Shown: piece by piece, positions 33 to 63,889 of the stretch
How the letters are laid out: every line of letters starts with the position of its first letter
How positions within the stretch are numbered: the stretch's first letter is position 1
Source of the DNA: Glaciozyma antarctica PI12
Lineage: Eukaryota > Basidiomycota > Microbotryomycetes > Kriegeriales > Camptobasidiaceae
Assembly: GCA_002917775.1 (NCBI GenBank)
Contig: KZ627148.1
Location: forward strand, 80,855-144,854
Length of the DNA: 64,000 nucleotides
Direction: 5' to 3'
Position numbers and translations under genes: made by a program
Notes under the pieces: model-generated
What the model was told of the DNA's origin: nothing
The model's database searches: none
Seen by the model: the letters and a program-made list of their open reading frames with translations, nothing else

Positions 33-1211
33 CTAGAACGTCGCCAGCTGCGCGTCGTCAAAAGCGAGGAGCGCGACGAGAGAGTTGTAGTTGTGAGAGC
101 GTATGCCGGCGTTGAGGAAGCGGGAGGCGTGGGGTGCGAGAGAGGGGGAGATTTGATGTAGGAGAGAGGTGAGAAGCGGCAGGAATGGGTGGTCGTGGAA
201 GGCGGGGGAGGGGGCGCGGAGTTGAGAGGTCGAAGCGATGGGTCGTTGAGGAGAGGGGGACCTTCCCTGACGCTTGCTGGGCGGGGAGACCTGCTCCTCC
301 TCGTCGAAATCACTCGCCTCCTCCTCCTCCTCCTCGTCGGATTGCGCTTGACCCCCGCTCTTCCGTGTGCCGCGTTTCTGCATGTTCCTTGTTCGGCCGC
401 CACGGCTTGAGCACTTTGGGCTCATGATCATGATCATGACGACCTTGAGCACCTACCAATCTTCCTCGAGTCCATCCTTGTTCACATCGACCGGTCTCGC
501 GTACACCGACGCCGTGCAATGGGGGTACGCAGGTCGAGGACAGCGCAGGATGAGAGGAAGGAGCGAGGGGGCGAGGGTTGGAGAGGTGTAGACGGTGCAG
601 TTGTAGCCTTGAGAATGAAGGGCGAGGGAGAAGGCTGAGTAGAGAGCGTGGCGAGTGGGGAAGATGGTGCCGACGGCAAGGAGGGTGGAGGAGGTCTGCG
701 AGAAGGGAGGGTCAGGCTGCGTACGGCTGGTCTAGAGAAGTACGTACAGGGCTCGGAGCTCTTTCAAAGAAGGCGGTCCTGAACCTCTTTGGAGGAGGAG
801 TCCACGAAGGATCCTGAAGCCTCTCCGCCTCGGCACCATGCGTATGCTCAGCGCGCGCCTTGTCGCCGACGACCCACCCCGCAACTCCCCCACTAGGCTC
901 ACCACAAACGCACAAGTTCCTTCCCGCCTTGCCTCGCCAGAACGAGTTGCCGCGACTGCACCGCGCCGCTCCTCCCTGCTCCCGAGAGTAAAGCACGTCC
1001 ATGTTGATCCCTAGAGCTGCGCGGTTGGCCGCGACGCAGGCGTGGAAGAAGGCGGCTTGAGTGGGGAAGTGCTCTCCCGCTCCTGGAATGCGGGGCTTGG
1101 TGGAGGAGGAGGGGGACTACGTGGGCGGGAGGTCAGTGAGGGAGGATGAGGGGGTGGGGCACGGGAGCTGACCGAGGCCACGGCGTTCTGCCATGCTGAG
1201 ATTGGAGTTGC
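33..1211 (-). pseudogene. FAR1-like tandem zinc-finger family, copy A (decayed)
   Basis: This is a member of the multicopy family that recurs across the window. Module 1 (about 760-1130) opens with GAGEHFPTQAAFFHACVAAN and has a Cys...Cys-x-Cys...W-V...H-T-H pattern. Module 2 (about 420-680) has VGTIFPTRHALYSAFSLALH, RCPRPAYPHC, then a Trp and a HDHDHE cluster. An acidic linker follows, then a C-terminal helical module (33-200) ending ...LLTSLLHQISPSLAPHASRF. Module 2 is broken: after the Trp there is an in-frame TAG, and the HDHDHE motif lies in another frame about 7 nt too close, so a small deletion is inferred. A small exon at about 1173-1211 with good splice sites leads into module 1; anything further upstream is unresolved. 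The function is unknown; the fold suggests DNA binding. I read it as a pseudogene, although indel errors in the assembly could mimic this. Confidence 0.55.
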
Positions 1212-1323
1212 CTGTGAAGTAGAACTAGTTAGCTGTCGTTCCTGGCCCTCTCTCTCCTCCCGCTGCCGCGAACGAGGTGCTCACACCCGTTGTGACCGTT
1301 CCCCCAGATGCTTCTCTCTCCCT

Positions 1324-1857
1324 CTACTGGTCGCCCTTGCTTGGTACGAGGCGATTGCTCGGGGGAGCTGTGCAGAGTCTCCATTGAGGCGTGAGTTTGC
1401 AGGCGACGGGGAGAATGAGAGAAGACGGGAAGAAACAAAGGCGAGCTCGCTGCTCGACTGCCGTCTTCGCCCCGGAAGCGGCTCCCCCTCCCACCTCCTT
1501 CCTCAGTGTCTCCCAGTCGAATCCAAAGCAGGAAATGGGCTGGATGAGGTGTATCGTAAAGATCCCCTGCAAGGCAGCCGCTGGAATGCGCTGCAGCACC
1601 CACAGCGTGGCGAACAAGATGCTTTCGCAGCGTCTCATCTTGACGTCGAGTATGGTGGTACTGAAGCCGTATTTGCGATCTACAGCAGCCAATTTACTCC
1701 TCAAGCTACTCTCCAGCAGCACTGGAGACTGGAAGACTGCTGGGCAGCTTCCTGGAGATAACTCTTTCTGCGAATCTACAAATGCGAGCGTTTCGCTGAG
1801 CGAGATAGACCTCTCTCCGAAGCTGTTCGACATCGAATCGTGGATGACTTGCAACAA
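1324..1857 (-). other. Open but unassigned stretch upstream of copy A
   Basis: About 178 codons are open on the minus strand. I do not recognise the product. It lies directly upstream of the decayed family copy, so it may hold an earlier exon or a badly eroded first module of that gene. No Cys/His pattern is good enough to claim this. The opposite strand is also open over part of the interval, which weakens the case for coding. Confidence 0.2.
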
Positions 1858-1942
1858 TTACGTCCCGTCCTTCCTTGCCCAATAATTCCCTTTCCTTGTC
1901 CCAAGGTATACACAGAGTACAACTCCCTCGAGAGAGAGGTCC

Positions 1943-4201: not shown

Positions 4202-5569
4202 GGTTGCTGCTGAGTGGGGTGGCTGGTGGGGCTCGAGTTGCCGAAGGTCGAAGTGGCTGGCGGCTGGCGAACGAGGAAGACGATAGAGCGCCCAAAGGAG
4301 CTGCGATAGAGTGGTAGAAAGGAGAGAGCGAAGGAGTGGAAGCCAGCGAGTCCAAGAGGGAAGCGGAAGGAGGGGCTCCGCGAATGTGGGGGGAGGGCCG
4401 TGATCCACTCTCACGTTCTCCGGTCGCGCGCGCCCTTCTGACTGCCCTGGGCGCCGGAAGAAGGAAATCCGCGTTCCCCTTCCACGAAAAGAAATTCAGA
4501 GTCTGGCCTGGCCTTCTCTCGGAAGAAATGGCGGTCAAAAAACGGCCGATGGTGGGGCACTCGGGAGGGGGTGGAGAGGTGGGGCTGAGTGCGAGTCGTC
4601 GGTCCTTGTTAATGTAGACCGAGGAACGCAGTAGGCAGGGCAAATCTGGCACGCCGTACGAGCGAAGCACAACTGGAGCGAGCGTCCTCGGCACCCAAGA
4701 CCGTCGGGAAGCGAGTTCCTTTAGTTTTCGCCTGAATTGTTGCCCCGGAAAACGGAGACTGCTCTTGAAGTCTGTCAGCAGAGCTTCCGTGCCTCGGAGA
4801 GGTAGACCGGCTAGTGAATCCGAACTGGGAGGCGCCGGCGCGGGAACACCTGCAGTGAAGGTGAAGCGTGCGGGATCAGTGACCTGAGAGCGCGAGGGGT
4901 TCTGCACGTACGTGGTGAGCTGTTCGTTGGGTGGTGGAACTTGAGCGGTAGAGACAAGGAGAGACGAGGGACTGTGTGGGGGGTTGGGGGACCTGGCTGC
5001 GAAGCCTCTCGCTACGGAGAAATTGAACTTTGGTGGAAGCGTGCTGATCGTCACACTAAGAGAAGCAACAATTAGTGAAGGCCTGAAACTGGCCTGAAGT
5101 ATCTGGTGATTTCTGGTGATTTGAGAAGAGGAAAGCAAAAGCGGTTGTCGAGGTTGTCGCCTCCCGCTACCGGACTCCGACGAAGTCGCTGCTGCCCTTC
5201 GTCTCCGCCTGTGTTCCTCGCAACCGTGGTGGATGAGACTTTTTCGCACATACAACTCATCCACTGCAAGTTTCTCGCCCGCCACCAGACCTCACCCGGC
5301 GATACCCCCTCGCAAGACCCTCACATATCTTTGCTTCCGAGTGAGCTTTTCAAGGTCGCTTGCTCGCTTCTTGTCAAGTACAGTGCTGCACTTAAAGATG
5401 TAAATAGCTCTTTGAAGCCCAACGACAAAAAGGACGAGTGGAAGCCTCTGAAAAGCCCCAGGTACGAAGCGAGCGAGCGAGCACTGGCAGATCTCGCCAG
5501 GTGATTGCTGCTGCCGGCGATGGTATTCCCACCAGCAATGCGTGTCTATCCTCGCCCCTCTCCAGATTC
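4202..5569. other. Intergenic region, no recognised gene
   Basis: This lies between the transporter start and the end of the ferric reductase pseudogene. A long minus-strand open frame (4194-5285) and a 132-codon plus-strand frame (5106-5504) are present. Neither shows a domain, a plausible splice pattern or family similarity. The part next to 4201 presumably holds the transporter promoter and 5' leader. The plus-strand frame ends in Lys/Glu-rich sequence and could be a relic, but I cannot assign it. Confidence 0.4.
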
Positions 5570-7913
5570 TCACCAGTCAAAGTCATCCGTAAACAGCTCG
5601 ACCTCCTCCGCACCCACTCCCCCAGTCCTCCCAAGCATGATGAGCTTCTGCCGCTCAGCAACCGCGTTCCGAACGTCCATCGTAAGGCTCGGTCCTCCGC
5701 AGCTTCCGATTCCGACTGATGATCCTCGCTGGACGCTGGAGAGTGACGAGGTGATGAGGCTGGCGAGGTTGGGCCGGCCGTACGTTACGTTCCAGGGACT
5801 GGTGCTGATAAGAATAGTCAGCGGGAGATGGAGAGCTGAGAGGTCAACGTTCGGATCGAACAGTGGTCGGGAAGATCTCAGCAGCGGCTCAATCTCACAG
5901 GACTCTTCGCTCAGCCGCACTTTCTTGTCTGCACCTGTGACGAAGAGGTGCACGCTGATGGTGCCTGCAGGAACGAGCGATGAGCTAGACGCAATCTGTT
6001 CCTTGAACCAGCTCCTCGCCTCTACCAGCGAGAAAACCCCATCAGCGCCATCTTCGCAACGAGCCAAGAAAAGACGCACCCTCCTCTCGCACGACCCAAA
6101 CCACCTCAACCCTCCTCGTCCTCACTCCCTCATCCCCCCTCCCAATTCCCTCGCACACCTCCTCCAAAAGCGCCGTAACAAAGCTCGCTCCCGCTCCTCC
6201 CGCAAAAAGTAGGACCGTCTCATGCCTCCCAATCCTCGCGCCCGCCAATCCTCCGTATGGCCCTTCCAGAAGAACCGCCGTCAATTTTCCGCTCTCCGCA
6301 AGCCCGAGCAAGCGAGGTCCTAATCCCTCTGCAGGATTGATGCGCAGCAGGACGATCATTGTCCGTTCCTTTGAATCGGCGGAGGGACAATTGGGTGTAG
6401 GGGTGGGATTCGAGAGGGAGGGCGGAGAGAAAGTTGAGGAAGTAGTGCTGGCCTGCGGTCCAGCGGTGTGAGGTGAGGGAGGGAATGGTGAGGCGGACGG
6501 CGCCGCAGGGGAGGGCGACGAGGGTGCCGCGAGGCCCAGAGGTATTCCCTGCGTGGGAGTTAGCGAGGGAGACCGAAGAGGTCAAAGAACGGACCAGGAG
6601 GTGAGAAGCTGCAAACAGTGTGTGAGCGGAGGTACATCGGTTGTTCGGGTGAGTGCGTACGTTCTGGCAGTGATAGTAGAAGAAGCCCGAGAAAATGATG
6701 GCTGAGACAACGTGCAGAATCTTGAAGGTCTCGTAAAAGCGATTTCGGAAGGCCGCAAACGACCCCCAGCAGAGCCACACGAGGGGTACGAGCGCTGCGA
6801 ATCCTGACCAGAAGTACTGCACAAGTGCATAAGTCCTCTGCGTCAAACGCGGAAGAACGAACGCACCGGCACGCCCCGCACAATCCAGGTGAAGTAGAAC
6901 TGAGAGTAGCCGTCCGGGTTCAGCCCATCAGTGTTGGGACGGATCTCGCGGGTTCCCTGTATGACGAAAGGAATCGTATGTATGAGGGAGAGCAGGACTT
7001 CCGAGAGGGGATCAGCCGAAACGCCTGCTGCGAAGGAGGGAGAAACTCACAAAAGAGGTGCGAGACCCATTGATGGAAGACCTGCAGCTTCTCGTGCGAG
7101 TATCTAATGACGAAGGTAACAAGGTTCCATTTTGAGCCGAACGCCCTAAGAAAAACAAGCATTAGCGAGGAAGCAAATTAAGGGAGGAGAAAAGTGCGGC
7201 GCACAGGACGAAGGGGAAGCAGGCCACTGCGAAGAGGCCTGAACGATCGTTCAGCGAGCTGCTGGCTTCTGTTGAAATCGGGAAAACCTACCCGCTCGAA
7301 GTGCCAACGGCGACCAGCCGACATCCCACCTCGAGCGATAGTAAGGCTGAACAGAGAACAACCAACCTGCGCACAGAGGATCAGCTTCCTGCTCACCCTC
7401 AAGCTCTCCACTCTCCAATGTTCAGCACTACGCACCACCGATGAAGAGCCACAGCGCAGTGACGAGGAGGATAACGCCGAGGGTCGGAAAGCGGATGAAC
7501 CCGACCGCGCGCGGCTGGGAGCAGGCGAGATAGCGCACGGCGGCGGTTGCGCGGCGAGAGAGCGCTTTCGAAGCTATGTGAGCTCCTACTCTGCGATATG
7601 GATGTTCAGATCAGCTCAAGATCCGGCGGAAAACGCGTGGAAGCTTACCTGGTCCGGCGAAGGCGCGTGAGGAGGTTGCTCAAGCCGAACTAGGCGATCC
7701 CTCCGAAGAAGAAGTAGAGACCTCCCCGCGCGTCTGGAGAAGGTCGCGGCTAGTCAGCACGCGTCTGCGATGGTCCTGGCGCGAGGAGAAGCGTCGTGGA
7801 GACAGCGGGAGAGAAAACTTGCACTCGGGCGCCTCCCACCAGGGATCGACGAGCTGCTCTGCCCTCTCGGCGTCGGTGAGGCCGCCGGCAACGAGGAAGA
7901 CGAGCGTCGACAT
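5570..7913 (-). pseudogene. Ferric-chelate reductase (FRE family), inactivated copy
   Basis: A paralogue of the intact reductase at 9413-11875, with the same exon order. It starts at 7913 (MSTLVFLVAGGLTDAERAEQ) and ends with EEVELFTDDFDW. Three lesions show against the intact copy. (1) In the first TM exon, GGIA is followed by TAG at 7690-7692 where the paralogue has Leu. (2) Near 6531, about 74 bp are missing between the EYLWA and RGTL blocks, which deletes the last TM helix and shifts frame. (3) About 17 bp are missing after ESHPYT (near 6362-6395), shifting frame again. The heme-His helices (KLQVFHQWVSHLF; FKILHVVSAIIFSGFFYYHC), the FAD motif HPYT, the NADPH motif FAGGAGASFV and the SCG motif are still recognisable, so the decay looks recent. 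Several independent lesions make assembly error an unlikely sole cause. Confidence 0.85.
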
Positions 7914-8147
7914 GCGCACGTCGAAGCAGCTTCTCAAAGAGCAGAACCGTTCGGATCTAATCTTTGAACGGACGGGAGAACACTGCCGGCGCAGTGCCTT
8001 GGCGTCGCATGGCCGTCGACGACGACGAGCTCGAACTCGAACGAAAGGCAAGGTACTATCCAGCACTGCTGAAGCGCACGATGAGCAGTTCAGCGAACTA
8101 CGACGCAGCGAAAGCAACGCACGAAATAACAGCGCTAAATTCCGTTC

Positions 8148-8352
8148 CTACGCGAAGGTCTTCCTCAACTCCCCCACCTTCTTCGCCAACAGCTCCCTCT
8201 GCAGAAGCAGCACTCCCTCCTCCTCCAACACCTTGCGTAAGCGCTCCTCGGGAAGGAGAAGGAACGCCACGAAACTACTGCGGCTTTGCAGCCCCCGAGC
8301 GTGCAGGAGGGGAGCGAGGTTGGCGAAGGAAGGGGAGAGGGCGGAGAGGAGG
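8148..8352 (-). pseudogene. C-terminal helical module of the FAR1-like family, orphan fragment
   Basis: The frame reads LSALSPSFANLAPLLHARGL, then a helix with PEERLRKVLEEE, and ends LLAKKVGELRKTFA. This is the same module that closes the family copies at 12.2, 31.7 and 40.2 kb. No zinc-finger modules precede it; upstream on the minus strand the frame runs into five Ns and then MED16-like sequence. A second, degraded copy of its first half follows at about 8440-8544, so the module was partly tandem-duplicated here. It is a fragment and not a gene. Confidence 0.6.
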
Positions 8353-8357
8353 NNNNN
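8353..8357. other. Five-base run of N
   Basis: Unresolved bases exactly at the junction between the family C-terminal module and MED16-like sequence. This suggests the assembler had difficulty joining repeated sequence here. Confidence 0.95.
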
Positions 8358-8440
8358 CTCCCCCCTCGTTCCGACCTCAACTCTCGTCGCCGCCACTCTC
8401 CCCCAATCCTCGCCACCCCACCGACCCCAAACAACACCCC
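8358..8440 (+). repeat. Fragment similar to MED16 coding sequence
   Basis: Directly after the Ns, the first ~40 bases match MED16 sense sequence at about 26.35-26.39 kb (coding SPLVPTSTLVAAT). The match then continues with substitutions and small gaps through the ATPPTP region. It has no start and no splice context, and is interrupted by the second family C-terminal relic. Confidence 0.6.
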
Positions 8441-8544
8441 TCGTAAGGGGGGAAGAAGAAAGGACACCACACAACTACTGCGTCTTTGCCGCCCCCGAGC
8501 GTGCGGAGCGAGGTTGACGAAGGAAGGGGAGAGGGCGGAGAGGA
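8441..8544 (-). pseudogene. Second, degraded half-copy of the family C-terminal module
   Basis: The minus strand reads LSALSPSFVNLAPHARGRQ. This is a close repeat of the 8148-8352 module, lacking two Leu codons and followed by unrelated frame. Its 5' edge coincides with the purine-rich string GGGGAGAGGGCGGAGAGG, which also occurs in MED16 at the position where the next MED16 segment resumes. A microhomology-driven join is a plausible origin. Confidence 0.5.
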
Positions 8545-8706
8545 ATGGATGCTGGGAAGTGGGGGGCGTTTGAGATTGGGTGGGAGGTACGGTGCGCTTG
8601 TGGAGGATTGTGGGTTGCGGAGGGGTAATGGAGAGCTGTTCTTCGGGTTCGTCAAGGGAGAGAGAGGTCCCGTTGCCTGCTCGCTTTGCGAAGCACTCTT
8701 TCGGCA
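8545..8706 (+). repeat. 162-bp exact duplicate of the MED16 3' end
   Basis: By eye, every base matches the reverse complement of 26031-26192. The segment covers the MED16 C-terminal residues from MDAGKWGAFEIGW through RCACGGLW, the TAA stop and the 3' flank up to the edge of the assembly gap. It is in a pseudogene context here, since nothing upstream restores a MED16 frame. The exact identity indicates a recent duplication or an assembly artefact. Confidence 0.85.
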
Positions 8707-11875: not shown

Positions 11876-12165
11876 GGTTGGGGAGGGTCGGGAGGCAGGT
11901 CTTGTACAGCCTTTCGCAATCAGTAACTCGTTTAGCTCGCAGAAGAAGAGCTTCAGTTTCCGAAGAGAGGTCCGCTCACTACTCTCCTCTCGTTCATTGG
12001 AAAAGAACGAGCCGAACAGCTGGAGGGTGTTTGGTGAGGACTTAAGAGTTGCTCGCGATCGTCTACGAATTTCCTAAGCTCGCTACCGAAGGCACATCTG
12101 AATCCATTCGCACGCTATTCACCACAAACAAGCACCTCCCTCCGATCCTCTTCGTCGCTCGCTCC

Positions 12166-13656
12166 TCATCCTCCGAACCTCTCCCTCAACTCGCCGATCT
12201 TCTTCACCAGAATCACCCTCGCAAGCTTCGTAAGTCCCTGCTTCTCGAGCTCCTCCAGCATCGCGACGAGCATCGACTCGGGGAGCAAGACCATCCTGAT
12301 AAGGCCTCGCTCGCTTCAGATCCCGTGCTGGTGAAGGAGGGGAGCGAGCGAGGCGAGGCTGGGGGAGAGGGACGCGAGGATTCGACCGAGGTTGTCGACG
12401 GAGAGAGTTTGGGGCGACGACGTCCGGAAAGCGAGGGGCGGCGGGTGGCGAGAAGGGAACGGAGGGAGTCGCTTTCGAGGCCGAGGATCGAAGCTTCTTC
12501 GGCGCCGGACCGCCTTGAGCGACCTTCGAGCGAGTAGCCTTCGACGACGACGGCATTCGATCCTTCGCATCGTGGTTCTTCTTCTTGATCCTCCTCCTCT
12601 CCTCCACCTCGTCGTTCGAGCTGTCCTCCTCGCTCGAGCTGTCCACGTCGTTCGACGTCGCCGACGATTCCGACTCCGATTCCGGCTTCGCAAGTCGACT
12701 TCGCCGCGGCATAGGAAGAACCCAGCGTCCAAGGTGCTTGTCCTTCTTGTGGTTGTGCTCCTCGCAGCTCTGGTAGACGACCCAGTCTCCATCGAGGTTG
12801 CTGCGGTCGACAGGCTTGAGCGAGATGCGGGCCGGGCAGTAGTCGGGTCGATCCTTGGGCGCGTTCCTTCGGCAGCCGACGGTGAAGTAGGGGCTGCGAG
12901 GGTGGCCGCTCTGGAGGATGCAGGTCTTGTATCCGCGAGCGTGCCATGCGTACGAGGCGGCGACGTAGGCGACTCGATGGGCTGAAAAGACTTGGCCGAT
13001 TTGAGGCATCGTGAGGTTCTGCGGAGGACGCTGTTTAAGCTCGAATCTCGTTCGAAATCGCATGGAAGCGTCGTACCTTAGTCGAAATCGTCTGATAAGG
13101 AGTCGAAATAGTCTGAGCAAGGGTCGATCTGGTCCACTTCCTCCTGCTCCTCGCTCCCCTTCCTCCTCCTGTGACTGTCCTCGTCTTCGCTCCCCGAACC
13201 GTAGCTCTCCTCCGATTCGACAGCCATCTTGCGCTTGCCCCTAGTCTCCTCCTCGCTCGCAGCTCCACGATTGTGCTCCCAGCGACATTTCGCATCGTCC
13301 ACCGTCCAGCCCGACTCGCCTTCGAACATGGTCACAACGACGACAGCGGGGCAGTAGGGCTTCGTCTTGCTCTTCGCGCAGCGCATGCGAATCGTCGAAT
13401 CGCTCGTCGTGTTTTCCGTTCGCTGCATCTTGATTCCTAGCGTGGCGAGCGAGGCGGCGACGCAAGCGGATTCGAAATCTGCGACGGATTCGAAGTGGTC
13501 TCCGGGAGCGGGCATTTGGAGTGTAGAGACCTGCAGAAATTCTGTGAACAGAACTACTTGTTGAGACTGGGGCGTGCTGCTGACCGGCGATTCGTAGAGA
13601 ACTTCAGCTGGGGAGCTGGGTTCGGCCTTGACGTTCGTGTGGTGACTAGGCTGCAC
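12166..13656 (-). pseudogene. FAR1-like tandem zinc-finger family, copy B (frameshifted)
   Basis: Module 1 (13.2-13.5 kb): PAPGDHFESVADFESACVAA, then RMRCAKSKTKPYC and GWTVDDAKCRWEHN. Module 2 (12.7-13.0 kb): QIGQVFSAHRVAYVAASYAW, VGCRRNAPKDRPDYC and SCEEHNHKKDKHLGRW. A Ser/Glu-rich and then basic linker follows, and then the helical module ISLDNLG-like with LASLSPSLASLAPLLHQHGI ending KKIGELRERFGG (stop 12166-12168). There are three problems. A TAA sits next to a donor at about 13079, so module 1 does not join module 2 in frame there. A frameshift lies before the helical module (about 12.4 kb). An in-frame TGA follows HQHGI (about 12.32 kb). It may continue upstream into the 13.67-14.17 kb exons. 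I infer a pseudogene; two typical DNA-binding-like modules remain readable. Confidence 0.7.
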
Positions 13657-13669
13657 CTGCCTCGGATCA

Positions 13670-31671: not shown

Positions 31672-33030
31672 TCAAGCGAACCCCTCCCTCACCTCCCTAA
31701 CCTTCATCCCCAAAATCTTCCTCGCAACTAGGGTTGACTCCAATCTCCCCCAGAGCTTTAGCGAGCATCGTTTCGGGGAGGAAGAACATCGACAGGACGC
31801 TGTTGGTGCTTTGCAGGCCGTGTTGGTGGAGGAGGGGAGCGAGGGTGCCGAGGGAGGGGGAGAGGGAGGTGAGGAGGGTGGCGACCGAGGAGATGGAGAG
31901 AGGACGGGAAGGCGGGTACGGGAGGAGGGACGATGAGGTTCGTGGGCGGGGGGAGGGAGCGGTGTTGGCTGGCGTCGTCGAGGTAGAGATGGATTGGCGA
32001 GGGGGAGGGGGAGGAAGGCGAGCTGTCGAAGCGGAGGTGGATTGGCGAGGATGCGGGCGAGACGTCGTTTGCTGCTGCTTGCGCCGAACGAACACCTGCT
32101 TGCTCTTCGCCGCTGTGTCGTCGTCGTCATCGCTCGAATCCCATTCTGAGGAGGAGCTCGTCCCGCTCAAATCCGAACTCTGCGACGGTTTCCTCGCCTT
32201 GAGAGTGCATCCAGCACCTTTCCTCGGAGGCATCCATGAGCCCAGATCTTCTTCAAGCGGATGGTTGTGCTCCTCGTGAACCGTAAACACGCGCCACGGT
32301 CCGTCCCAGTCGTCTTCGACTACGGGCTTGAGGTAGATCTTCGCGGGGCAGACGTCGAGGCGTTTGAGAGGAGCGTGGCGCTTGCAGCCGAAAATGTAGC
32401 GCCCAATGTGGTTGTAGCTGGGGTTCTGACTGGTGACGGTGTGGTATCCTCGCGAGTGCCAGACGTAGGAAGCGGCGATGAAAGCGGCTCGGCGGGAAGG
32501 GAATTCCTCGTTGGTTCTTGGCATCTCGAGGTCCTGTCAGAGCTGAACGTCAGAAACTCGGGACTGAGACGCGAGAGAGGAGCTGTGGCACCTTGAGCAA
32601 GATCCCCTCGTCGGTCTTTCGCTCGCCCTGGTCGAACGCGCACGACTCCTCCTCCGATTCGAGGTCCGAACCGGCATTGTCCTCGCTTCCCTTCGACGAC
32701 GAGTCGACGATTCGACGGCGCTTCCCCTTCGGATCCGGTGTCTCGGCGTGGACGTGCTCCCAAACGCTCTTCGCATCGTCGATAGTCCATCCCGACTCTC
32801 CTTTGACGACGCTCGCGGCGATCGAAAACTTGCAAGAGCCAGCCGGGTTGTACTGGTTCCGCTGAGAGCAGCGGATGCGAATCGTCTTGAGGGAGTCCGT
32901 GTTCCCTTGTCGATGGAGCTTTGTGCCAGTCGTTGCGAGGCAGGCGTCGATGCAGGTTAACAAGAGGTATCGAGCGATGGAGAGAGCAGATCTAGCAGCT
33001 AAATCGCCAGAGGTGCGGCGGCCGGAGGAG
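31672..33030 (-). pseudogene. FAR1-like tandem zinc-finger family, copy C (nearly intact)
   Basis: Module 1 (32.75-32.97 kb): CIDACLATTGTKLHR, IRIRCSQRNQYNPAGSCKF, GWTIDDAKSVWEHV. An intron after GILLK joins in phase to DLEMPRTNEEF. Module 2 (32.26-32.5 kb): SRRAAFIAASYVWHSRGYHT, FGCKRHAPLKRLDVCPAKI, VHEEHNHPLEEDLGSW. A Ser/Asp and Ser/Pro/Thr linker leads to the helical module SVATLLTSLSPSLGTLAPLL. The usual module end (ARKILGMKVREVREGFA, stop 31672-31674) is in the next frame: one surplus base near 31741-31746 diverts translation to a short alternative end at 31697. The N-terminal exon is not resolved. This is the best-preserved copy with this architecture, and it may still be expressed with an altered tail. 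Confidence 0.65.
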
Positions 33031-40206: not shown

Positions 40207-40518
40207 TCACCCCTCCCACCCCGCCCTCAGCTCCCCAAGCTTCTTCGCCAGGATCCGCCTCTGCAACCCCGGCAGCCCCTCCTGCTCCAAACTCTTCAGA
40301 ATGTCGACCAGAGCGTCTTCCGATGTGACGACCAGCACGACGAAGCTCTCGGTCGAGCGGAGTCCGTGCGAGTGGAAGAGCGGCGCGAAGGTCGCTAGCG
40401 AGGGGGAGAGCGAGGCGAGAATGTTGGCGAGGTCTTCAATGGAGATTGGGGAAGGCTGGAGAGTGGAGTGCGAAGTGGAGGGGGGAGGGTTGGGCTGGAG
40501 GAGCTCCCGCCGTCCCAT
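40207..40518 (-). pseudogene. C-terminal helical module of the FAR1-like family (fragment D)
   Basis: The frame reads SIEDLANILASLSPSLATFA, then FHSHGLRSTESFVVLVVTSE and ends ILAKKLGELRAGWEG. The module is complete and unbroken here (about 80 residues) and gives the clearest view of it. It has a short Ser/Pro-rich lead-in starting MGRRELLQPNPP. No zinc-finger module is directly attached: the next sequence upstream on this strand is the end of another family C-terminus at 40540. It could be a last exon or an orphan fragment. Confidence 0.55.
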
Positions 40519-40539: not shown

Positions 40540-40953
40540 CTACTCCCTCAACTCCTCCTGCGCCCTCTCCACTCCCGCCCTAAACGCCACCCTCTGGAAC
40601 GCCGGCATTCCTTTGAAGTCGTCAATCCCCGCGTCCAGCTCCTTGATGTACGCCTCGAGGCAGATGGGCCCGAGGCTGAGGAGGCGGACGAGGGCGGAGG
40701 AGGAGGTGAGGCCGGATGCGATAAGGAGAGGCGCGTAGGGTGGGAGTGACGAGGAGAGGTGGCGGAGGAAGGCGGTGAGGGAGGGTGGGCGGGCGGAAGG
40801 GAAGGTCGAGGACGGTGTCGAAATTGGCTGATGGCGAAGGGAGGAGCTCGCCTGGGGAGGAGCTGGAGGCGAGTAGCTGTGCGAGGGTGCGGAATCGCGC
40901 GAGGTGGAGGCGTGGGAGGAGGGATAGATAAATAGATAGATAGATATCTTCAT
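40540..40953 (-). pseudogene. C-terminal module of the FAR1-like family, second type (fragment E)
   Basis: The frame reads SLTAFLRHLSSSLPPYAPLL, IASGLTSSSALVRLLSLGP, CLEAYIKELDAGI, then MPAFQRVAFRAGVERAQEEL and stops. It is colinear with the C-terminus of copy H at 57.3-57.56 kb, including the preceding PPAPPQASSS stretch. Its upstream part runs into a TAGA simple repeat, so the rest of the gene was lost or displaced. Confidence 0.55.
40924..40948. repeat. Simple repeat (TAGA/GATA)n
   Basis: About 25 bases of imperfect TAGA repeats, at the point where similarity of fragment E to copy H ends. Confidence 0.8.
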
Positions 40954-41265: not shown

Positions 41266-43257
41266 TCAGCCCTTACCCTTTCGCACACCCTTCCCTCGCG
41301 CCTTAAGCCTCGCCTTGAGCTCCTCGTGGTACCTCGGAAAGCGACCGGTGTTGGTGACGAAAGCGAGCGTGTGAGGCACGACCTTCGGGTTGCTGAGGAG
41401 GGAGGAGAGGTCGTAGGCGTCCGGTCCGACGGCGTGGACGAGTCGGGATAGGAGCGACCCTTTAACGGTCCTGGAGCTCGCTGAGAGGAGGGCGACGAGG
41501 TGTCGCGAGGAGAAGGGTGAGGGACGTGTCGAGGAGGGGGACGAGCTGCTGGCGCTTTGTGCGAGCGACGGGACGAGGGCTGAGCTGGAGGGATGGTCCG
41601 GTGAAGGGAGGGGCTCGGGTCTTGGTGTCGCGAGCGAGCCGCTTTGGGAGACCTGTCGAAGTCGTCCCGTTCGTCGGTCGAGTCCTTACGCGAGCGCCGC
41701 TTGCCCTTGGTCTTCTCCGCCGCCTGCTCCCACCGCGGCTCCTCCGACTCCTGCTCGATCGGCGCTGGTCACAAGTAGAAATCGTTCAGCGCACGGTCGT
41801 CCTCCATGTCGTCCTGCGAAGACCGCTCATCACGGTCGACCTCCTCGTCCCTCGCCAAGTCCGACTTTGACGGATGCTGAGCTCGACCGAAATCGAAGTT
41901 GAAAGGGTCCGCTTCGTTCTGCTCGGAAGCGTCCAGCGAAGCGCCGTTCTCGCTCCCCGCGACGTCCCCCGAATCCTGCTCCCACCACTGCCCCAGCCGC
42001 TCCGCGTAATCGACCACCCTCCCCTCGCGATCGTTCTGCCGCTCTGTCTCGTCGAATTCGTCGTCTCCGAGGTCGCTCTACGCGACGTCGTACTCCTCTG
42101 GGATGTCTCCAGCGTCGCGCGTGCCAAGCGCTGCCTCCGGGCGGTCAACTTCGTCGAAGGTGCGATGCTCGGCGGGGATTTGCGACGATGCTCGTCGACG
42201 ACGCAGGGGAGGAGGAGAGGGGGAACCGAGACTGCGCTCAGAGTCGGAGAGGGACGTGAGGCTTGACGAGTACTGCGATCCTCGTTCGCCAGACTCGGCC
42301 TCGCTCGACTCCTCCTTGAACCTCCCGGTATCACCAGAGACTTCGTCGACGCTGCCCGATCCGCGATGGTTGTGCCCTCCTCGCAGGTCGGCAGCGATCC
42401 AGCGCTCGACTCCATCGACGTCATGTCGTTCTACTCGCAGCAAGAACGGACATCCGGCGCCAGAACGGTCGTGCGGGACGCACCGCAGGTCGAATCGCCT
42501 TTCCGCCATCTTTCCCTTGCGTACCGTGCTGTTAACGTGGAGCACGAAGGAGCGTTGCTGGGCGGCGGCGCAGGCATAGATTCGGAAGAGCTCGTGTGAG
42601 GGCGCCGAATAGCCGTTCGACGGGGTGGGGAAAGTGAGAGGTGGTCCCTGACGAGAGGGAATTCAGCAGCTGTCGTAAGAGGAAGGAGGGAGCGAGACCA
42701 ACCTCGGCGAGACTAGTGACTCGAGAGCGAAGCCTCAGACCGTGGTGCTGCTTGATGTACGGGAGTCGCGCCGAGATTGGCTCTGCTACCTCCTCCTGCG
42801 GCTCCTCCGCCTGCGACGACGAATCCGAGTCGACCGCGACCGTGTGGCTGAACCGCGCCGCACGAGCTTCTCGCCGAGCGCCTGCTCGTTGCTCCGCCTC
42901 CACCGTCTCCTTCAAAGCAAGGAGGACCGCCGGATCTTCCTCTGAGAGTGCGTGCGGGTGCGTGAGGCGAGAGAGGGTGATCTTGATCGTCGAAGAGTTC
43001 GAATGAGGCCGCGTAGCTTCGATACGGAACGGACAGCGGCCGTCGAGTTGCGGGCAGTTGAAGATGATCTGCTGGGCGTACCGAGTCGAGTTCTCGACAG
43101 TGAGAGAGTATCGGCGAGATACTGGAGGGCAGAGACGTTAGCCTGGGGAGAGGGACCCGCCGCGGAGGGACGCACGAGCGGCGGCGAGGACTGCAGCCTT
43201 GAAGTGAGCGTTGCTCCGCCATTCACTGCCGAGCTCTGGAAACGCCGACTCCTCCAT
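41266..43257 (-). pseudogene. FAR1-like tandem zinc-finger family, copy F (in-frame stops)
   Basis: It starts at 43257 (MEESAFPELGSEWRSNAHFK). Module 1 continues after an intron: YSLTVENSTRYAQQIIFNCP, QLDGRCPFRIEATR, TLSRLTHPHA. After a Gln/Glu linker and a second intron, module 2 reads PLTFPTPSNGYSAPSHELFR, DLRCVPHDRSGAGCPFLLRV, RWIAADLRGGHNHRG. The acidic tail ends EEYDVA and TAG (42078-42080). The same frame then continues through YAERLGQWWEQDSGDV to TGA at 41769-41771, and on through KRRSRKDSTDERDDFDRSPK. In another frame a C-terminal helical-looking segment (LLSRLVHAVGPDAYDLSSLL) ends at 41266. If translation ends at the TAG, this is a two-module protein of about 350 residues. Confidence 0.65.
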
Positions 43258-43354
43258 CGTGAAGCGGCGAGAGGAAGGGAACACGTCGCGGCGGAACTCG
43301 TGGTCTCCTCACGGGGCCCCAGCGCGGCGGAGGCCCTCCCTTTGTTCGTTAAAA

Positions 43355-43480
43355 CGTATCTCGGGGGACCACAGCATGTTTCGAGGCCAATGAGATTGAC
43401 GAGGCTAGTCCGGGAGGTAACTCGGGAGGCAATGAGGAGAGGTGCGTAGGGAGAGAGGGAGGGGGAGAGCGTAAAAGGAT
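43355..43480 (-). pseudogene. Relic of a family C-terminal module
   Basis: The frame reads TLSPSLSPYAPLLIASRVTS and SLVNLIGLE, matching the module of copy H. It lies just beyond the stop of copy G and an AT-rich stretch, so it is probably the severed C-terminus of copy G. It breaks off after about 40 residues. Confidence 0.55.
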
Positions 43481-43515: not shown

Positions 43516-45444
43516 TTATAAGAGTATGACAATAACAATATATCTATATAGGTATGCCGTCCCGCAAAGCTGTTGGGCTGGCCACACCGCCGCATCCTCC
43601 TCGACGGCGATCTCCATCTGCTCCTCCCGTATCCGTCGCTCCTCCTTTCGGTCGCCCGCGAACGACTGCCCGAATCCCTCCTCATCCGACGCCTCGTAAT
43701 TCACAGCGAAGTAATCCCTCGCAGCCGGCGCCTCCTCAGGCTTGGGTTCAGCAGCAGCGACGGCCTGCTCGCTCCCGACCTCGCGCTCATCCACCACCGC
43801 CGCCTCGCACCTGACCTCCGCAAGGAAAGCTGTCGTGCCGGGCGCCAATGAGGGAGTTGAGATAGGAAGTTGAGGAGGAGGGGAGGATGACTGCCGCTCA
43901 TCATCCGACGGCGACGAAAGGCTCGACATCTCCGTCAACTCGCGCCTCCCCCTCTCCTCCTCCACCCGCCCAGCTCCCACCTCATGATTATGCTCACCGT
44001 GTAGCTCCACGACCTTCCACTCATCCACCTCCCCCACCTCCTCACACTCGACCAGCACCCAGAACTGGCAATTCGACCTGTCCTTCCCGCGCCCGTACTC
44101 GCTGCACACGAGCTCGAACTGGTCGAGCTTGGGCTTGCGAGTGTCGTAGAGACGGAGGGAGAAGGATTGCTGGAGAGCGGCGGCGCCGGCGTGGATGCGG
44201 AAGGCGGTCGAAGTGAGTGCGGAGAAGCCATTGGTGGAGGAGGGGAAGGAGAGGGGACCGAGCTAGTGAAGAGGTTAGCGCTGGAAGAGAAAGAGGGAGA
44301 AGGAAGCGGACGTTGGAGAGTGCTAGGATGGGGTCGACGAGGTCGCGGCCGTGTACGAGGTTCGGAGTGTCGGCGGGAGTGGCGTCGGGGGGTAAGGAGG
44401 CGTGAGTTGAGGGGAAGGCGCGGATGGTCGGGGCGGATCGTTTGCGCGGCACGAGCTGCAATCAAACGTTAAAATCAACTTCTGTCGATGGGTCGAGCAC
44501 GAAGAGCAGGCGCACCTTGGGACGACTGCTCGAGGCCACCGCGATGGGAGGTGCTCGCACCGAGGTCTCGGCGACTGTGATACGGCTTCGCGAATCACAG
44601 GAATGCTCGAGCGTGCTGTCCGCCATTTGCCATTTCCCATCTCGTTCCTCAACGCCGACGAAGAAGGAGCAGACGCCGAGTACGCCGTGTCGCAAGGGGT
44701 TGCCGCACTCGAAATGGGCCGAGTCCTTGTTGGCGCTGAGACTCGAGAGGAGGAGAGGAAACTTGTCGAACCGGGCAGCGGCGTGCAGGCGGATGAGGAT
44801 GGCGCGGAAGGTCGGAAAGGGGAGGTTCGAGGCGGGAGTTGGGAAGGAAGGTGCAGTCTGAGGCGAAGCACGTTAGCTGAGTCTCCGGGAGAAGTGAGGG
44901 ATACCCCACCTTCAGAAGCTGCAATACCTCCTTCTCCATGCTCTGCGCGGAAGGGAACCTCGCGTCTTTCGATGACCCCAAGCTAGCCAGCCCAGAGTCG
45001 CGTGCCGCCGTTCTTGTGGAGAGGCACCTGGCCCGCAGACGCTCCTCCTCCTCCTGCTCCGCCTTGTCCATCATTTCCTTCCCTTTTTCTTTAACTGGAG
45101 CCAGCTCCTTCCCCGCCGTCGCTTCGTGCGAATGCCTGAGTTCCCGCTGAACGACGCGGAAAGGAGGACGCGCTGCCGGTGCCTTCTCGCACCGCGTCGA
45201 GGATGAACGGACAGGCCATAGTGTAGGAGCAGACAAGAGTGATGCGGTCGTCTGTTACTGGGAGTCGAGAACCGATGAAGGTCTGTTGCGAGGCTGGGAG
45301 AGCGAGTTGGCTCGAGCGTTGGGGGGGGAGGGGGGGAAGGTGGGCAGAGCAAAGCTTACCCGCTGCTGCGTAGGCGGTTAGTTCCCAGAATACCCCGGTG
45401 TTGCTCCAGGTACTCCCCAGGGCGGGGAAGCTCAAGTTGTTCAT
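43516..45444 (-). pseudogene. FAR1-like zinc-finger family, copy G (three modules, one frameshift)
   Basis: It starts at 45444 (MNNLSFPALGSTWSNTGVFW). Module 1 continues over an intron: VTDDRITLVCSYTMACPFIL and FRVVQRELRHSHEATAG. One surplus T in TCCTTTCC (about 45.16 kb) puts the two halves in different frames. A charged coiled-coil-like stretch EKGKEMMDKAEQEEEERLRA follows. Module 2 (44.6-44.9 kb): FPTFRAILIRLHAAARFDKF, FECGNPLRHGVLGVCSFFVG, TLEHSC. Module 3 (43.95-44.27 kb): STNGFSALTSTAFRIHAGAA, LVCSEYGRGKDRSNCQFWVL, LHGEHNHEVGAG. An acidic Ser-rich tail ends in an atypical hydrophobic sequence (YLYRYIVIVILL) read from an AT-rich stretch, and the expected C-terminal module lies beyond the stop. 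All introns otherwise join in phase. Confidence 0.65.
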
Positions 45445-55456: not shown

Positions 55457-57562
55457 ATGGACGAACACCCATTCCCAGAGCTCGGGAGTGACTGGCTCAG
55501 CAACTCCCACTTAAAGCTCGCCGTCTTTCAAGCTGCACGCAAGTCCTGTCTTCCCCAACGCGCACCGTCCGACTCGGCTCACCAAGCTCTCGCGGTTACA
55601 CTCTCAACTTCCAATATACCAACCGCTCCGCACAGTACATCAGCTTCGTCTGTCCTCAACTCGATGGCCGCTGCACCTTCCGCATTTATGCGACTCGACA
55701 TGATTACAGGGCGTCGAAAGCTTCGGTCACCGGCTGCCAGTCCAGAAGGGCCGACAAGTTGAAGAGGCGGCGGAGAGACCAAAGCGGATCCACGGCGGGG
55801 AATACCACCACGGCGGACAAGGTCCTCGAGCGGAGCTGGAGCAGCGGATCCCGAGCTGAAAGACCTCCGTCGAGGGGAGCCAGGCGGCCCTCAAATTCCC
55901 ACCTCTCGAGCGAATTCACTACAGCGTCCTTCGTCCCAGAATCATCGCTCTCGCCGCTGTTCGTCTTTCTCAAGTTCCGAGTACTCGTCTTCTGAGAGCT
56001 GACGACTTTCTTGCGCGACGCAGTCCGAACCACTCACCTTTCCCACCCCAACCAACGGAATCTCAGCCCCCTCCTACGAGACTTTCCGCGTCCTCGCGTG
56101 CGCATCAGCTCTCCAGCACTCCGTCACCCTCCTCCTCAGTGATATCCCTCTCGTCGGCCGAATGGCGAACCAGCGCTTCAGCCTTCGCTGCAACTCGAAG
56201 GACAAGGGCTGCCTCTTCCGCCTCCGAGTCGATCGCGTCGATGAGGTCAAGAGCTTCGAGCGTTGGGTCGCGACGAAGTTGAGGAAGGATCACAACCATT
56301 CCGGACCGACGGACGTGGAGGAACGCGCTGGAATCACCGACGCAAATGGAGCTCCCCAGCCTTCGAGCGGCGCGCTAGGCGGGCGGGCCCCGACTTCTTA
56401 GCAACGCCTTCTCCCCTCCGTCATCTCTCTCCAGCGTAGGAATGTCGACGAGCCCGACCGCGGACCAGAAGCGAATCGCGCAGGAGCGAGTTCGAACGGA
56501 TCGGTCGAGTAGAGCGAGCTCGGCGCGGATGGGACCGAGGAGAGGGAGCGGCGCCGGAGCGGAGAAGGGGTGGAGGCGGAGTACGTCGGGCGATTGGGGC
56601 AGTGGTGGGAGGAGGAGTCGATGGACGTTACTAGGAGCGAAGAGCGCGACGATGGGCGACAGTTCGGTCGGCAGCGAGCTTCGAGGGACGCCATCGAGCG
56701 GAACGAGGCGCAAGAGGTTGGCGTTGGCGAAAGGCGAGGTCGGCGAGTGCCAAAGGCGAGTGAGTCAAAGACGGAGAGGGAGAGTGGCGCGAGGGTCAAG
56801 CAGGAGACCGGCGTGGTCGACTCGCAGGAGCAGCAGGACCACGACGACCGCGAAGTTGGCGAGCAGACGAGGATCAGGAGCAAGCACCGCTCGAGGGAGG
56901 ATTCGTTCGACGGGAGGGACGACGTTGAATGACCACCTAAGGCTCCTCGCCACGATCCCGTTCCTCAGCAGCAAGTCGCTCGCCCGCACCACCGCCGCAT
57001 CAGCTCCCCGGTCGACCAGTACCTCCCTCCTCCTCCCCCCTCTACTCGCCGCTCCCACAACCTTCCTCAACCTTTTCCCGCATTTCGCCGCTCCAGCAAC
57101 CTCCCTCCAACTCAAGCTTCGCACCACTCGACGTCTTCGCACCAAGCTCAGCATTTCCCGAGGGACCGCTCCGACTCGGCCACCGGTACCGCCGCCTCTC
57201 CCAGCTTCGCCACCGCTCAGCACTACCTCACCCCAGCTCCTCCCCAAGCCAGCTCCTCCCATCGCCGTCAGCGCACCTCGACCCCAGCGCCTTCCTCTCC
57301 CTCCTCCCACCCCTTCCTCCCCTCCCTTGCCGCCTTTCTCCACACCCTCTCCTCCGCCCTCAACTCCTACGCGCCCCTCCTCATCGCCTCCGGCCTCACC
57401 TCCTCCGCCGCCCTTGTCAATCCCATCGGTCTCGAACCGCACCACCTCGAGGCGTACGTCGACGCGTTTGGAGGGGGGATTGGAGTAATTGGAGGGATGC
57501 CAGCGTTCCAGAGGAGGAAGCTGAGGGTGGGGGTGGAGAGGGCGCGGGAGGAGTTGTTGTAG
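55457..57562 (+). pseudogene. FAR1-like tandem zinc-finger family, copy H (in-frame stops)
   Basis: It starts at 55457 (MDEHPFPELGSDWLSNSHLK). After an intron, module 1 reads YTLNFQYTNRSAQYISFVCP, QLDGRCTFRIYATR. After a second intron (donor GTACTC, acceptor GACGCAG) comes module 2: PLTFPTPTNGISAPSYETFR, FSLRCNSKDKGCLFRLRVDR, KLRKDHNHSG. The frame meets TAG at 56399-56401 and TAG at 56510-56512, then is open through YVGRLGQWWEEESMDV to TGA at 56931-56933 (Arg in copy F). It runs open again into SLAAFLHTLSSALNSYAPLL, IASGLTSSAALVNPIGLE and the end VERAREELL at 57560-57562. The whole second half is thus one frame with three stops. It is the closest relative of copy F. Confidence 0.7.
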
Positions 57563-60927: not shown

Positions 60928-62915
60928 ATGGCTCCCTCTACTCGCCCCTCGAACAAGGAACGGCGCTTCAGTGCCGCCGCCGATTCGCCCTCCGAGCATT
61001 CGGACAACGACGATCAAGACGACGCGTATTTCGACGAGGAGGAGGAAGACGAGCCTCGCCAGCGGTATCATCCTCCTCAGCAGCACTCCCAGTATCGGCC
61101 GCAGCAGATGGACATTCTTGAACTCGTTCATCGTGCGGATTCCGCGTCGGGAGGAGGAGAGAAGGTGGAAGTCGCGCGGCCGTTTGGGTGCGAGGAGCCG
61201 GGCTGTGAGAAGGCGTTTGCGAGGAGGAGTGATCTCGTTAGGCACGCGAGGATTCACACCAACGAAAGGTGAGCTTCGTTTCAAATCGTCGCAGTGGAGG
61301 ATCGAGGGAACGATAGCTGACTTGCGCGTCTCCCCCTCTTCTGCAGGCCGTTCGTTTGCCCGTACCCCGTCTGCCGCAAGTCCTTCATCCAGCGCAGCGC
61401 GTTGACCGTCCACATTCGCGTACAGTGAGTGTCTTTTCGTCGCCTCGGCCCTCCTCGGAGCTAACTCCATCGCTCCTCAGCACCGGAGAACGCCCTCACT
61501 CGTGCGAAATCTGCCAACGCTCTTTCAGCGACTCGAGCTCGTTGGCTAGGCATCGTCGTGTTCAGTGAGTCCGGTTTGACCACTTTCGAGGAACGCGTTC
61601 TAACTGCGCCTTCTCCCTTCTTAGCACCGGCAAGCGTCCCTACAAGTGCAACGCGGACGAGTGCGGCAAGACGTGCGTGCTTCTCCTCCTTCCATTCTTT
61701 TCCCTTGACTTACTCGACTCGCTCACCAGCTTCTGCCGCAAGACGACGCTCACGAAGCACATCAAACGACAGCACCCGGACGCCGACCCCGCAGCGACCC
61801 CCGGTTACGACCACGGACCTCTCACTCACTCACCCGCCCTATCCTACCACTCGGGCTCCTCTCGCGGTGGCATGCCTCCCCACTCCCACTCTCCTCACCC
61901 CTCGCACCACGAGTGGCGCCACGAGTCTAACGTCCTCGCTCCTCTCCATTACCCTCCCTCTCCGCACGCCTCGCACTCGATGAACCGATCGCAATCGCTC
62001 CCGACCTACCCTTCCGACGGCCAGACCTACTCTTTTCCCTCGTCGGACGAGTACGGCCCTCCTCACCCCGCGCACCACCACCACGCCCACGAATCTCGCA
62101 GCGACCCAACGGGGAGGAGTCCGAGCCCTCCTGCTCACGGTTTGTCGATCCCAGCACGGTCATTCGCCCCTCCCGCGATCTACGATTCGCACGGGGACGC
62201 CGTCCAGGCGAGCTACACGCACGAAACGCCTTCGAACGGACCGTACGGACCGCCGACTCACACGCCGCACATGTACCACCCCCACCCGCAGTACTCGCAC
62301 CGCCCTACCTCTCCTCAACGCCACCACTTCCACCACAATCCTCCTCCGCAAGCGTACGCCGCTCAGCCCGTCCAGTACGGCTCTTCGTCGCACGGCAGCA
62401 GTCGATCGCATTCCAGCTCCCTCTCCCACCCCTCCAACCACACGCTCCTCCTCCCCTCGAAGCCTCAAATCCACCCGCCCTACCCTCCCCACTACTCTCC
62501 CCCGCCTTCCCACTACCCCCCGCCTCACCCGTCGCACGCCAGTCCTCGAACGTACTACGCCACTCCCACGCAAGCGGCTTACGCGGGGATTAACTATGGA
62601 ACGCCGTACCCTAGTGCCACCTCGCCGGCGACGACGTTTCAGGCGGGGAGTCCGAACAGGTTTTATGAGGACGAGTATGAGAGGAAGCCCGTCATTGGCT
62701 CTAGGAGTCCTGAGGCTCTAGGAGTCCTGAGGGTCGAGGATCTATGCTTGAGAGGTGGTTTTCGATTTCCCCAGTTTGTGATACATACCCTCACTCTCCC
62801 GTTCGCACGATCCCCCTCGGTTCTCGTTCCACCCCGTCGTCCTCGTCGTCGAGCTGATTCTCACCCCATTCTATACAGTTGTAGTTTAGCAGTATCGTAC
62901 GCACCGTCTTCTTAG
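60928..62915 (+). CDS. C2H2 zinc-finger transcription factor
   Basis: A nuclear DNA-binding protein with four or five C2H2 fingers split over short introns. It starts at 60928 (MAPSTRPSNKERRFSAAADS). An acidic stretch DDAYFDEEEEDEPRQR precedes finger 1 FGCEEPGCEKAFARRSDLVR...HTNER. Finger 2 is FVCPYPVCRKSFIQRSALTV. Finger 3 is HSCEICQRSFSDSSSLARH with the linker HTGERP. Finger 4 is YKCNADECGKT^FCRKTTLTKHIKRQH. The C-terminal 370 residues are His/Pro/Ser/Tyr-rich low complexity. A 17-bp tandem duplication at 62698-62731 shifts the last ~60 codons. Without it the frame would end in a poly-Ser tail. Upstream exons near 60.44-60.67 kb are possible but unproven. Confidence 0.85.
62698..62731 (+). 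repeat. 17-bp tandem duplication in the C2H2 gene
   Basis: GCTCTAGGAGTCCTGAG occurs twice head to tail. Because 17 is not a multiple of three, the reading frame after it differs from that of a single-copy allele. Confidence 0.9.
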
Positions 62916-63539
62916 TCTTGCATTAGTAGCCTCGCTTGCAAACAATCGTTCGCACGCTCTTTCGTTCGTTGAAGCGAGAACGGGCGTTTTTCGCGATGGC
63001 TGCGATGGCGAGCTGGATTCGCGAGAGATGTCGAGAGACACGCCTGGATACAGCTGCAAACACCTTTCACACTCGTCCAACAAATAGCGCGGCCGGGAGA
63101 ACCTGCTCAGAACGAGAATCAACAAAATTCGCGCCTCGGCCAGCGAGATCTCCTCCTTTCAATTTTTCTCCCATAGCCCGCTCCGCTGGTCTATGCGATC
63201 GGTGTGATGATTTCAGGCTTTTGTACTTCGGGGAAGCGGGAGGAGAGAAGAGCTCAGGGTGGATTATCAAGGAGGACGCCACCTGGGCTTGGGTGTCCCG
63301 GGAGGTGAGCTGCACGAGAGAGACCTTTCGAGAGACGCAGATAGTCTAGCTCTTTCGGTTACCTCCTCCTTACGTTCTTAAGACTGAACTGACGGTCTGG
63401 AGAAACGAGTTAAGCTCGCCTCCGCTGCCTGCGCGAAAGAACACCTGAGTGACTTCGGTTCTCCCCTCTCTCTTCCTGAGATCGTTCCTCTTCATCCGCA
63501 GAGCTCCCAAGCCACGCTAAAGTGACTACGAAATGAGGG
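62916..63539. other. Intergenic region
   Basis: Sequence downstream of the C2H2 gene. No gene was recognised. Confidence 0.4.
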
Positions 63540-63889
63540 AGGAGAGGAAAAAGTACCTGCGGCGACCTGGCTGCAAGAGCGGAGTCACGTAAATCCGCGA
63601 GGAGTCTTCTCGACCTCGCTGCTCGCCTTTCTTCCTCTCACACCCAACTCGAAATGCAAGGCTTTGATCCTGCGCTGTTCGGGCCGAGCTGGTGCCAGGC
63701 GTACGAGGTTGTGACTTGGAGAGCGTGGCGGGAGGGGAAGGTGTCGCCGACGGAAGGTATCTGGAAGGTCTGTACGGGGGAAGGGTAGTCAGTCGGGCAG
63801 CCAAGTAGGACCAGGAGAGAGGATGTGGCAAGGAGACTGGCGTACCGTCTTGAGCTTGCGAGCAAGAGCTGCATGAGACATTCCCCCAA
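63540..63889 (-). pseudogene. FAR1-like zinc-finger family, copy I (relic at window edge)
   Basis: The minus strand reads IPSVGDTFPSRHALQVTTSY and AWHQLG, the start of a family module. In the next frame it continues SLAFRVGCERKKGEQRGRED and RIYVTP, equivalent to the Cys core of module 2 in copy B, with the second Cys missing. A frameshift therefore separates the two halves. More of this copy may lie beyond the window edge. Confidence 0.5.

Follow-up and report, generated by a model that had tools for sequence, protein, structure and literature searches.

A multicopy gene family in a subtelomere

We describe a family of repeated coding modules in Glaciozyma antarctica PI12, found in a window of 64,000 nucleotides of contig KZ627148.1 (hereafter C3; the window is C3:80,855-144,854) and followed through the genome (19.98 Mb, 18 contigs searched). 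The usual layout of a copy is module-module-linker-tail, the tail being a C-terminal helical module. A sequence-only reading of the window had named ten places with family sequence, and six-frame translation together with profiles located the family at all 10. A module pair plus tail is present at 0-1.1, 12.2-13.5, 31.7-33.0, 41.3-43.1, 43.3-44.9 and 55.5-57.6 kb of the window, and tails without modules lie at 8.1 kb and, adjoining each other, at 40.2 and 40.5-40.8 kb (Table 1). The piece at 63.6 kb matches the fuller copy at C3:174.4 kb (99% over 319 nt).

Two sets of profiles were used. The first, made from six window modules and five tails, both recovered more window members. The later ones, made from alignments of 12 window modules and 7 tails, were searched against C3:1-204,500 and C4:486,001-516,000. 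With the module profile, 23 of the 29 listed rows had E < 0.1 (12 training rows and 11 from outside the training set); with the tail profile the figure was 19 of 27 (7 training rows and 12 from outside). Reversed open frames of the same DNA, which served as a control, yielded 5 module rows, none better than E = 2.3, and 7 tail rows, the best at E = 3.2. The repeated modules are therefore real and beyond chance, and they form a true family, as had been proposed; the family is also under-annotated. Two further statements of the sequence-only reading hold for part of the copies. It had assigned two or three modules to each full copy: two is the commonest number, and a third was only suspected by eye, in the C4 copy (module profile E 6.8) and in the copy at 28 kb of C3. 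It had also assigned a C-terminal module to each full copy; this is found in most, but the tail of copy F was recognized by eye only and is absent from the profile matches.

Table 1. Family features in the window (positions are counted from the first nucleotide of the window)
Feature	Position	Strand	Remarks
Copy A, C-terminal helical module, 5' part	36..215	-	tail profile
Copy A, module 2	456..698	-	plausible 52-nt intron to module 1
Copy A, module 1	817..1095	-	type I first module; long branch in tree
Lone C-terminal module	8154..8351	-	tail profile
Second lone C-terminal module, partial	8444..8557	-	adjoins 8154..8351
Copy B, C-terminal module	12175..12405	-	decayed: in-frame stop splits tail
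Copy B, module 2	12731..13009	-
Copy B, module 1	13252..13515	-
Copy C, C-terminal module	31700..31924	-	last helix in different frame (by eye)
Copy C, module 2	32246..32527	-	one open frame with own linker and tail
Copy C, module 1	32736..33011	-
Lone C-terminal module D	40210..40479	-	resembles tails of B and C
Lone C-terminal module E	40543..40821	-	61% identity to tail of H
Copy F, putative divergent C-terminal module	41269..41580	-	by eye only; missed by tail profile
Copy F, module 2	42366..42662	-
Copy F, module 1, partial	42913..43137	-
Copy G, C-terminal module, partial	43341..43478	-
Copy G, module 2	43966..44262	-	best Pfam FAR1 match (E 9.6e-5); modelled in 3D
Copy G, module 1	44582..44851	-
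Copy H, module 1, partial	55549..55761	+
Copy H, module 2	56003..56308	+
Copy H, C-terminal helical module	57305..57559	+	modelled in 3D
Module start, truncated	63682..63760	-	recent duplicate of gene at C3:174.4 kb

The genome was searched at the protein level with eight different family queries, exon by exon, and the resulting counts are lower bounds. All matches with E < 0.001 fell in C3:27.9-175.3 kb, in C4:506.9-508.4 kb or at C13:1,037.2 kb. C3 starts with (CCCTAA)n and carries at least ~17 loci (grouped by eye, fragments and lone tails counted) 28-175 kb from the telomere: 28, 41-42, 42.6, 53-55, 56-57, 77-78, 79-80.6, 81-82 (A), 89, 93-94 (B), 112.5-114 (C), 121 (D/E), 122-124 (F), 124-126 (G), 136-138 (H), 144.5 and 174-175 kb. 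Neither C3:1-27 kb nor C3:176-204 kb had a module or tail profile row with E < 0.1. With one locus each on C4 and C13 the genome total is ~19, fragments counted, and there may be more outliers beyond these two. The C13 module was detected by one query only (profile E 2.9e-11; both cysteines and HNH within the 300 bases read). The C4 copy is internal, since telomere repeats occur at both ends of that contig. Thus the family, which had been called dispersed, is so inside the window; genome-wide, its loci are clustered in the left subtelomere of C3, with two known outliers, rather than spread.

Weaker matches were rejected at the loci checked. Eleven of them (on C1, C3, C8, C13, C14 and C16), including the minus-strand matches at C14:955 kb and C1:1041 kb, were searched in both orientations with the module and tail profiles, and the best E was 22; the match at C3:1603 kb belongs to a different gene. 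A weak match at C3:543.5 kb (E 0.02) contains two stops, and other weak matches elsewhere were at E 0.2 or worse. Telomere-type repeats also occur interstitially at C1:77.1 kb and C1:777.7 kb, reflecting an old fusion or a misjoin.

Similarity of modules and tails to known folds

FAR1, AFT and WRKY domains are grouped in one WRKY-GCM1 superfamily, to which the modules had been assigned in the sequence-only reading. This assignment was weighed on Pfam matches, profile comparison with the PDB, predicted fold and ligand positions, lines of evidence that are not fully independent of each other. Pfam FAR1 (PF03101) matched 9 of 20 modules (best 23.5 bits, E 9.6e-5) and, in an earlier scan, 3 of ten larger window frames. 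In the 20-module scan, DBD_Tnp_Mut (MuDR-type; E 0.023) and AFT (PF08731; E 0.077, below cut-off) each matched a single module, as did each of four unrelated Pfam families. With a profile of the 20 modules, AFT2, a DNA-binding activator of yeast, was the single PDB match up to E 10 (E 0.056). With a 12-module profile there were 5 matches up to E 10, among which AFT2 was second (E 0.13) with an alignment spanning the CPF...W...H-H stretch; the top match was an unrelated viral spike construct (E 0.056), whose two repeats were at E 39 each. The first cysteine is present in 20/20 modules, the second in 19/20 (the remaining row is cut before it) and HxH in 13/20.

Module 2 of copy G was modelled with AlphaFold2 on a 12-row window alignment (predicted local distance difference test, pLDDT, 86.9; predicted template modelling score, pTM, 0.78). 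The predicted secondary structure is a helix (residues 18-31) followed by four strands (36-39, 48-53, 68-76 and 79-88), so that the model would combine the helix, the four-stranded sheet and the C-C-H-H/C ligands characteristic of the superfamily, the ligands being judged from sequence positions. A Foldseek comparison of the model with the PDB gave 491 matches up to E 10. The AFT2-DNA complex (4lmg_B) ranked fourth (E 0.26), with the top probability, 0.96, and the top query TM-score, 0.54, among the best 50 of the 491; the AtWRKY18-DNA complex ranked ninth (E 0.37, probability 0.47) in the same set. Against the assignment it must be said that no module reached the curated Pfam FAR1 cut-off of 28.1 bits and that no fold match had an E below 0.1 (best, 0.14). 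Six-frame genome searches with Pfam FAR1 and Pfam AFT gave no matches, though no control matched either, and a viral fold library gave no significant match. Taken together, we consider it very probable that the modules are WRKY-GCM1-type zinc fingers of the FAR1/AFT-like kind.

Such modules could keep the fold and yet contact protein or RNA instead of DNA. The similarity to proven DNA binders is weak, and other Foldseek rows among the best 50, of lower probability, are non-DNA-binders; however, the biologically sensible fold neighbours, AFT2 and AtWRKY18, are DNA complexes, and we regard contact with protein or RNA as very improbable.

The FAR1 matches and the one DBD_Tnp_Mut match are also what would be expected if the copies were non-autonomous or domesticated Mutator-like derivatives, that is, the DNA-binding part of a Mutator-like element (MULE) transposase, mobile as a short element after loss of the catalytic core; the WRKY-GCM1-type fold does occur in MULE transposases. 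However, the MULE catalytic domain (PF10551) had no match in the genome at E 0.001, in a search whose control matched in 3 of 14 genomes. Ungapped comparison of the 1.5-kb flanks of 13 copies revealed no terminal inverted repeats above background (maximum of 14 for a copy's own flanks, and of 17 in a null of 26 mismatched-flank pairs). The sequence-only reading, which had seen neither a transposase catalytic domain nor terminal inverted repeats, is borne out on both counts. In a self-comparison (E 1e-6), matches between copies were confined to the genes or to local segmental duplicates, and clustering in a single subtelomere would be unlike the dispersal of an element. Non-autonomous or domesticated derivatives of this kind therefore seem distinctly unlikely. 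As for an old transposon origin, it is neither supported nor excluded, because no MULE domain and no terminal inverted repeats above background were found.

The tail matches no known family. The model of the H tail has six helices, but at a pLDDT of 74 its fold is uncertain. None of its 21 fold matches in the PDB was significant, and these two points count against the reading favoured below. The highest TM-score (0.46/0.49) among the 21 was that of the LEAFY oligomerisation domain 4ude, which we take to be a sterile alpha motif (SAM) fold (SAM domains being five-helix bundles), yet with E 8.5 and probability 0.14. The tail profile had no convincing relative in the PDB, and a Pfam scan of 15 tails gave no SAM match and only two scattered weak ones. 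We therefore treat the tail as a helical module for which SAM likeness is a weak lead.

Gene structure, decay and constraint

The genes of the cluster are old and diverged, and most copies look partly broken or in need of predicted splicing. The modules can be joined in copy A by a plausible intron of 52 nt, whose donor and branch site fit the consensus, in copy C by a 58-nt candidate intron (branch site present, donor poor) and in copy G by a 253-nt candidate with a branch site; the candidates between the modules of copy B are all poor. Several features weigh against working genes: no single intron of 35-259 nt links the modules of copies F and H, the B tail has an in-frame stop, the C tail changes frame near its end (by eye), the modules of the C4 copy and of the 28-kb copy contain an in-frame TAA and an in-frame stop (the latter by eye), respectively, and the 63.6-kb copy is truncated. 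The stops of the C4:507.5 kb and ~C3:28.6 kb modules lie at the same spot, two residues past the second cysteine (by eye), which is probably a coincidence. Two copies outside the window are more continuous. In the copy at C3:76,752-78,005 a single 418-codon frame covers the two modules, the linker and a portion of the tail, and in that at C3:174,242-175,273 a single 344-codon frame covers one module, linker and tail. Open-frame length was rejected as evidence: in random sequence of the same triplet make-up (64 kb, 100 runs) the median longest open frame was also 418 codons, so that the length of the 418-codon frame proves nothing.

Of 8 frames examined, 4 contain acidic runs and 6 contain clusters of at least three lysines or arginines, which in one of the 6 lie inside the tail. 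Two acidic linkers, DSDVEILEP (~C3:28.8 kb) and DSDIQILES (~C3:42.1 kb), look by eye like small ubiquitin-like modifier (SUMO)-interaction motifs; a simple pattern found none in 8 other frames.

In a module tree of 20 rows (2 of 17 inner branches starred, 7 open), the second modules A2, B2 and C2 and the 174-kb module grouped together (99/98), as did the first modules F0 and H0 (100/96). With lower support, the first modules A1 (a long branch), B1, C1, 53-kb and 56-kb joined, as did the 28- and 41-kb modules, and the F, G, H, 77-kb and C4 modules. On these groupings, the multi-module genes were probably duplicated as units and fall into about three subfamilies.

Selection was addressed by a codon comparison of 15 domain pairs. 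The ratio of nonsynonymous to synonymous rates (dN/dS) was 0.20-0.85. The pairs overlap, their alignment at the protein level favours low dN, and the synonymous sites of module pairs are near saturation. For 14 of the 15 pairs the corresponding ratio of proportions (pN/pS) had a smaller value in frame than in either shifted frame, and for 1 there was a tie. This suggests purifying selection on many domains; the limits just given, and the 4 pairs with dN/dS of 0.75-0.85, tell against it. The same 4 pairs are consistent with a dead or dying subtelomeric family, once a regulator and now mostly neutral debris of local duplication with no present function, as are the in-frame stops, the frame changes, the many pieces that are truncated or stand alone, and the fact that other genes of the region are likewise locally duplicated. 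However, most old paralogues are constrained in frame, the first cysteine is kept throughout, and the copies at 76.8-78.0 and 174.2-175.3 kb keep module(s) and tail in one frame, with the reservation about frame length made above. We judge loss of all function to be unlikely.

Self-comparison of the region also revealed many local duplicates of other genes. A tandem triplicate at C3:48.8-51.2 kb has 70-85% DNA identity (one frame tested, no Pfam match), and C3 shares an inverted copy (99%) between 144.5 and 174.2 kb. At ~25.7-26.4 kb of the window there are inverted (near-)exact copies of short pieces from 8.4-8.7 kb and from copy B (13.0 kb); they adjoin a run of N and are a rearranged duplicate or an assembly artefact.

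Proposed function, neighbouring genes and known systems

The reading that we favour, with moderate confidence, is that of a lineage-specific family, seen in one genome, of nuclear sequence-specific DNA-binding regulators subject to subtelomeric birth and death. The regulator role as such is held to be moderately likely too. We infer DNA binding, a nuclear role, activation and oligomerisation, and it is the predicted fold by itself that would point to a transcription factor. Each fuller member would have a tandem pair of WRKY-GCM1-type zinc fingers, each finger with one helix, four strands and C-C-H-H ligands. The fingers might insert a beta-sheet in the major groove of DNA, the way in which AFT2 and WRKY factors read DNA, and the pair could read a longer or bipartite site. 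The basic and acidic/serine linker may have a part in nuclear import and in contact with coactivators, while self-association or the docking of partners may fall to the C-terminal helical module. The genes would multiply and die through local segmental and inverted duplication within one subtelomere. A bolder version, which we consider speculative and unlikely, is that an undescribed architecture, in which tandem WRKY-GCM1 fingers are combined with a new helical module for oligomerisation, is diversifying in the subtelomere as a toolkit for an arms race or niche adaptation. Each paralogue would have its own DNA site and might silence or switch genes of the subtelomere, or mobile DNA, much as TLO genes or vertebrate KRAB zinc fingers do.

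Among 20 window frames, Pfam identified ferric reductases (2), a transketolase (1), a LYC1-type acetyltransferase domain (1) and XMAP215/CLASP TOG domains (2). Among 20 frames outside the window, those that it identified all lie telomere-distal of the window: a BAR/PH protein, a PHD-like finger, a CLP1-type protein and an Mrp51 protein. In C3:1-80 kb, none of the nine frames tested, the 77-kb family member included, had a Pfam match at E 0.001. The ferric reductase-like genes (5500-7900 and 9400-11900 of the window) are an inverted pair, ~66-87% alike in pieces, with lone family tails between them. The likeness to AFT2 and this inverted pair raised the idea of an iron regulon. YRCACCC, the Aft-type site, occurs 0 times in 7901-9400 (~0.9 expected, hence a weak test), and iron regulation was rejected.

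The best solved-structure relatives of the module are AFT1/AFT2 (4lmg, PF08731; profile E 0.056, Foldseek 0.96), iron-regulated activators of budding yeasts (background in PMC4161868). The CPF...W...HxH stretch is common to both. In contrast to AFT1/AFT2, the present family has at least two tandem modules and an extra C-terminal helical module, Pfam AFT is matched by only 1 of 20 modules (E 0.077), and there is no YRCACCC between the neighbouring ferric reductase genes. Plant FAR1/FHY3/FRS and FRF proteins (PF03101) have an N-terminal zinc finger of the same type, matched below cut-off by 9 of the 20 modules; the present family differs from FAR1/FHY3/FRS in its tandem modules, its helical tail and the absence of a detected MULE domain. 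FRF proteins, too, are not known to carry the transposase core. They are truncated FRS proteins according to PMC10847358. In Table 3 of PMC4469406 (2015), Pfam FAR1 counts are 14 in Melampsora larici-populina, 4 in Puccinia graminis, 1 in Mixia, 1 in Ustilago maydis and 0 in the three Microbotryomycetes tabulated; rust fungi thus have FAR1-domain proteins as well. The FAR1 of PMC5604158 is a different protein. Among the literature matches listed (titles and beginnings of abstracts, with subscription journals mostly missing), there was no description of a tandem FAR1-like subtelomeric fungal family.

Zinc fingers such as these would escape annotation based on cut-offs: there are ~19 loci, yet no module attains the Pfam FAR1 cut-off. 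If functional, the family would offer, within one subtelomere, a small set of naturally occurring paralogous DNA readers, and a test case for re-use of the WRKY-GCM1 fold without a transposase. The founding survey of the superfamily was reportedly that of Babu et al. in 2006, and fungal expansions may well be in it. Subtelomeres are better known for transporters and for surface or secreted proteins than for transcription factors. Candida albicans TLO genes, a subtelomeric multicopy family of transcription regulators whose proteins are Mediator subunits, provide an analogous setting with unrelated proteins. The family described here appears to represent a known kind of gene regulator in a new local expansion.

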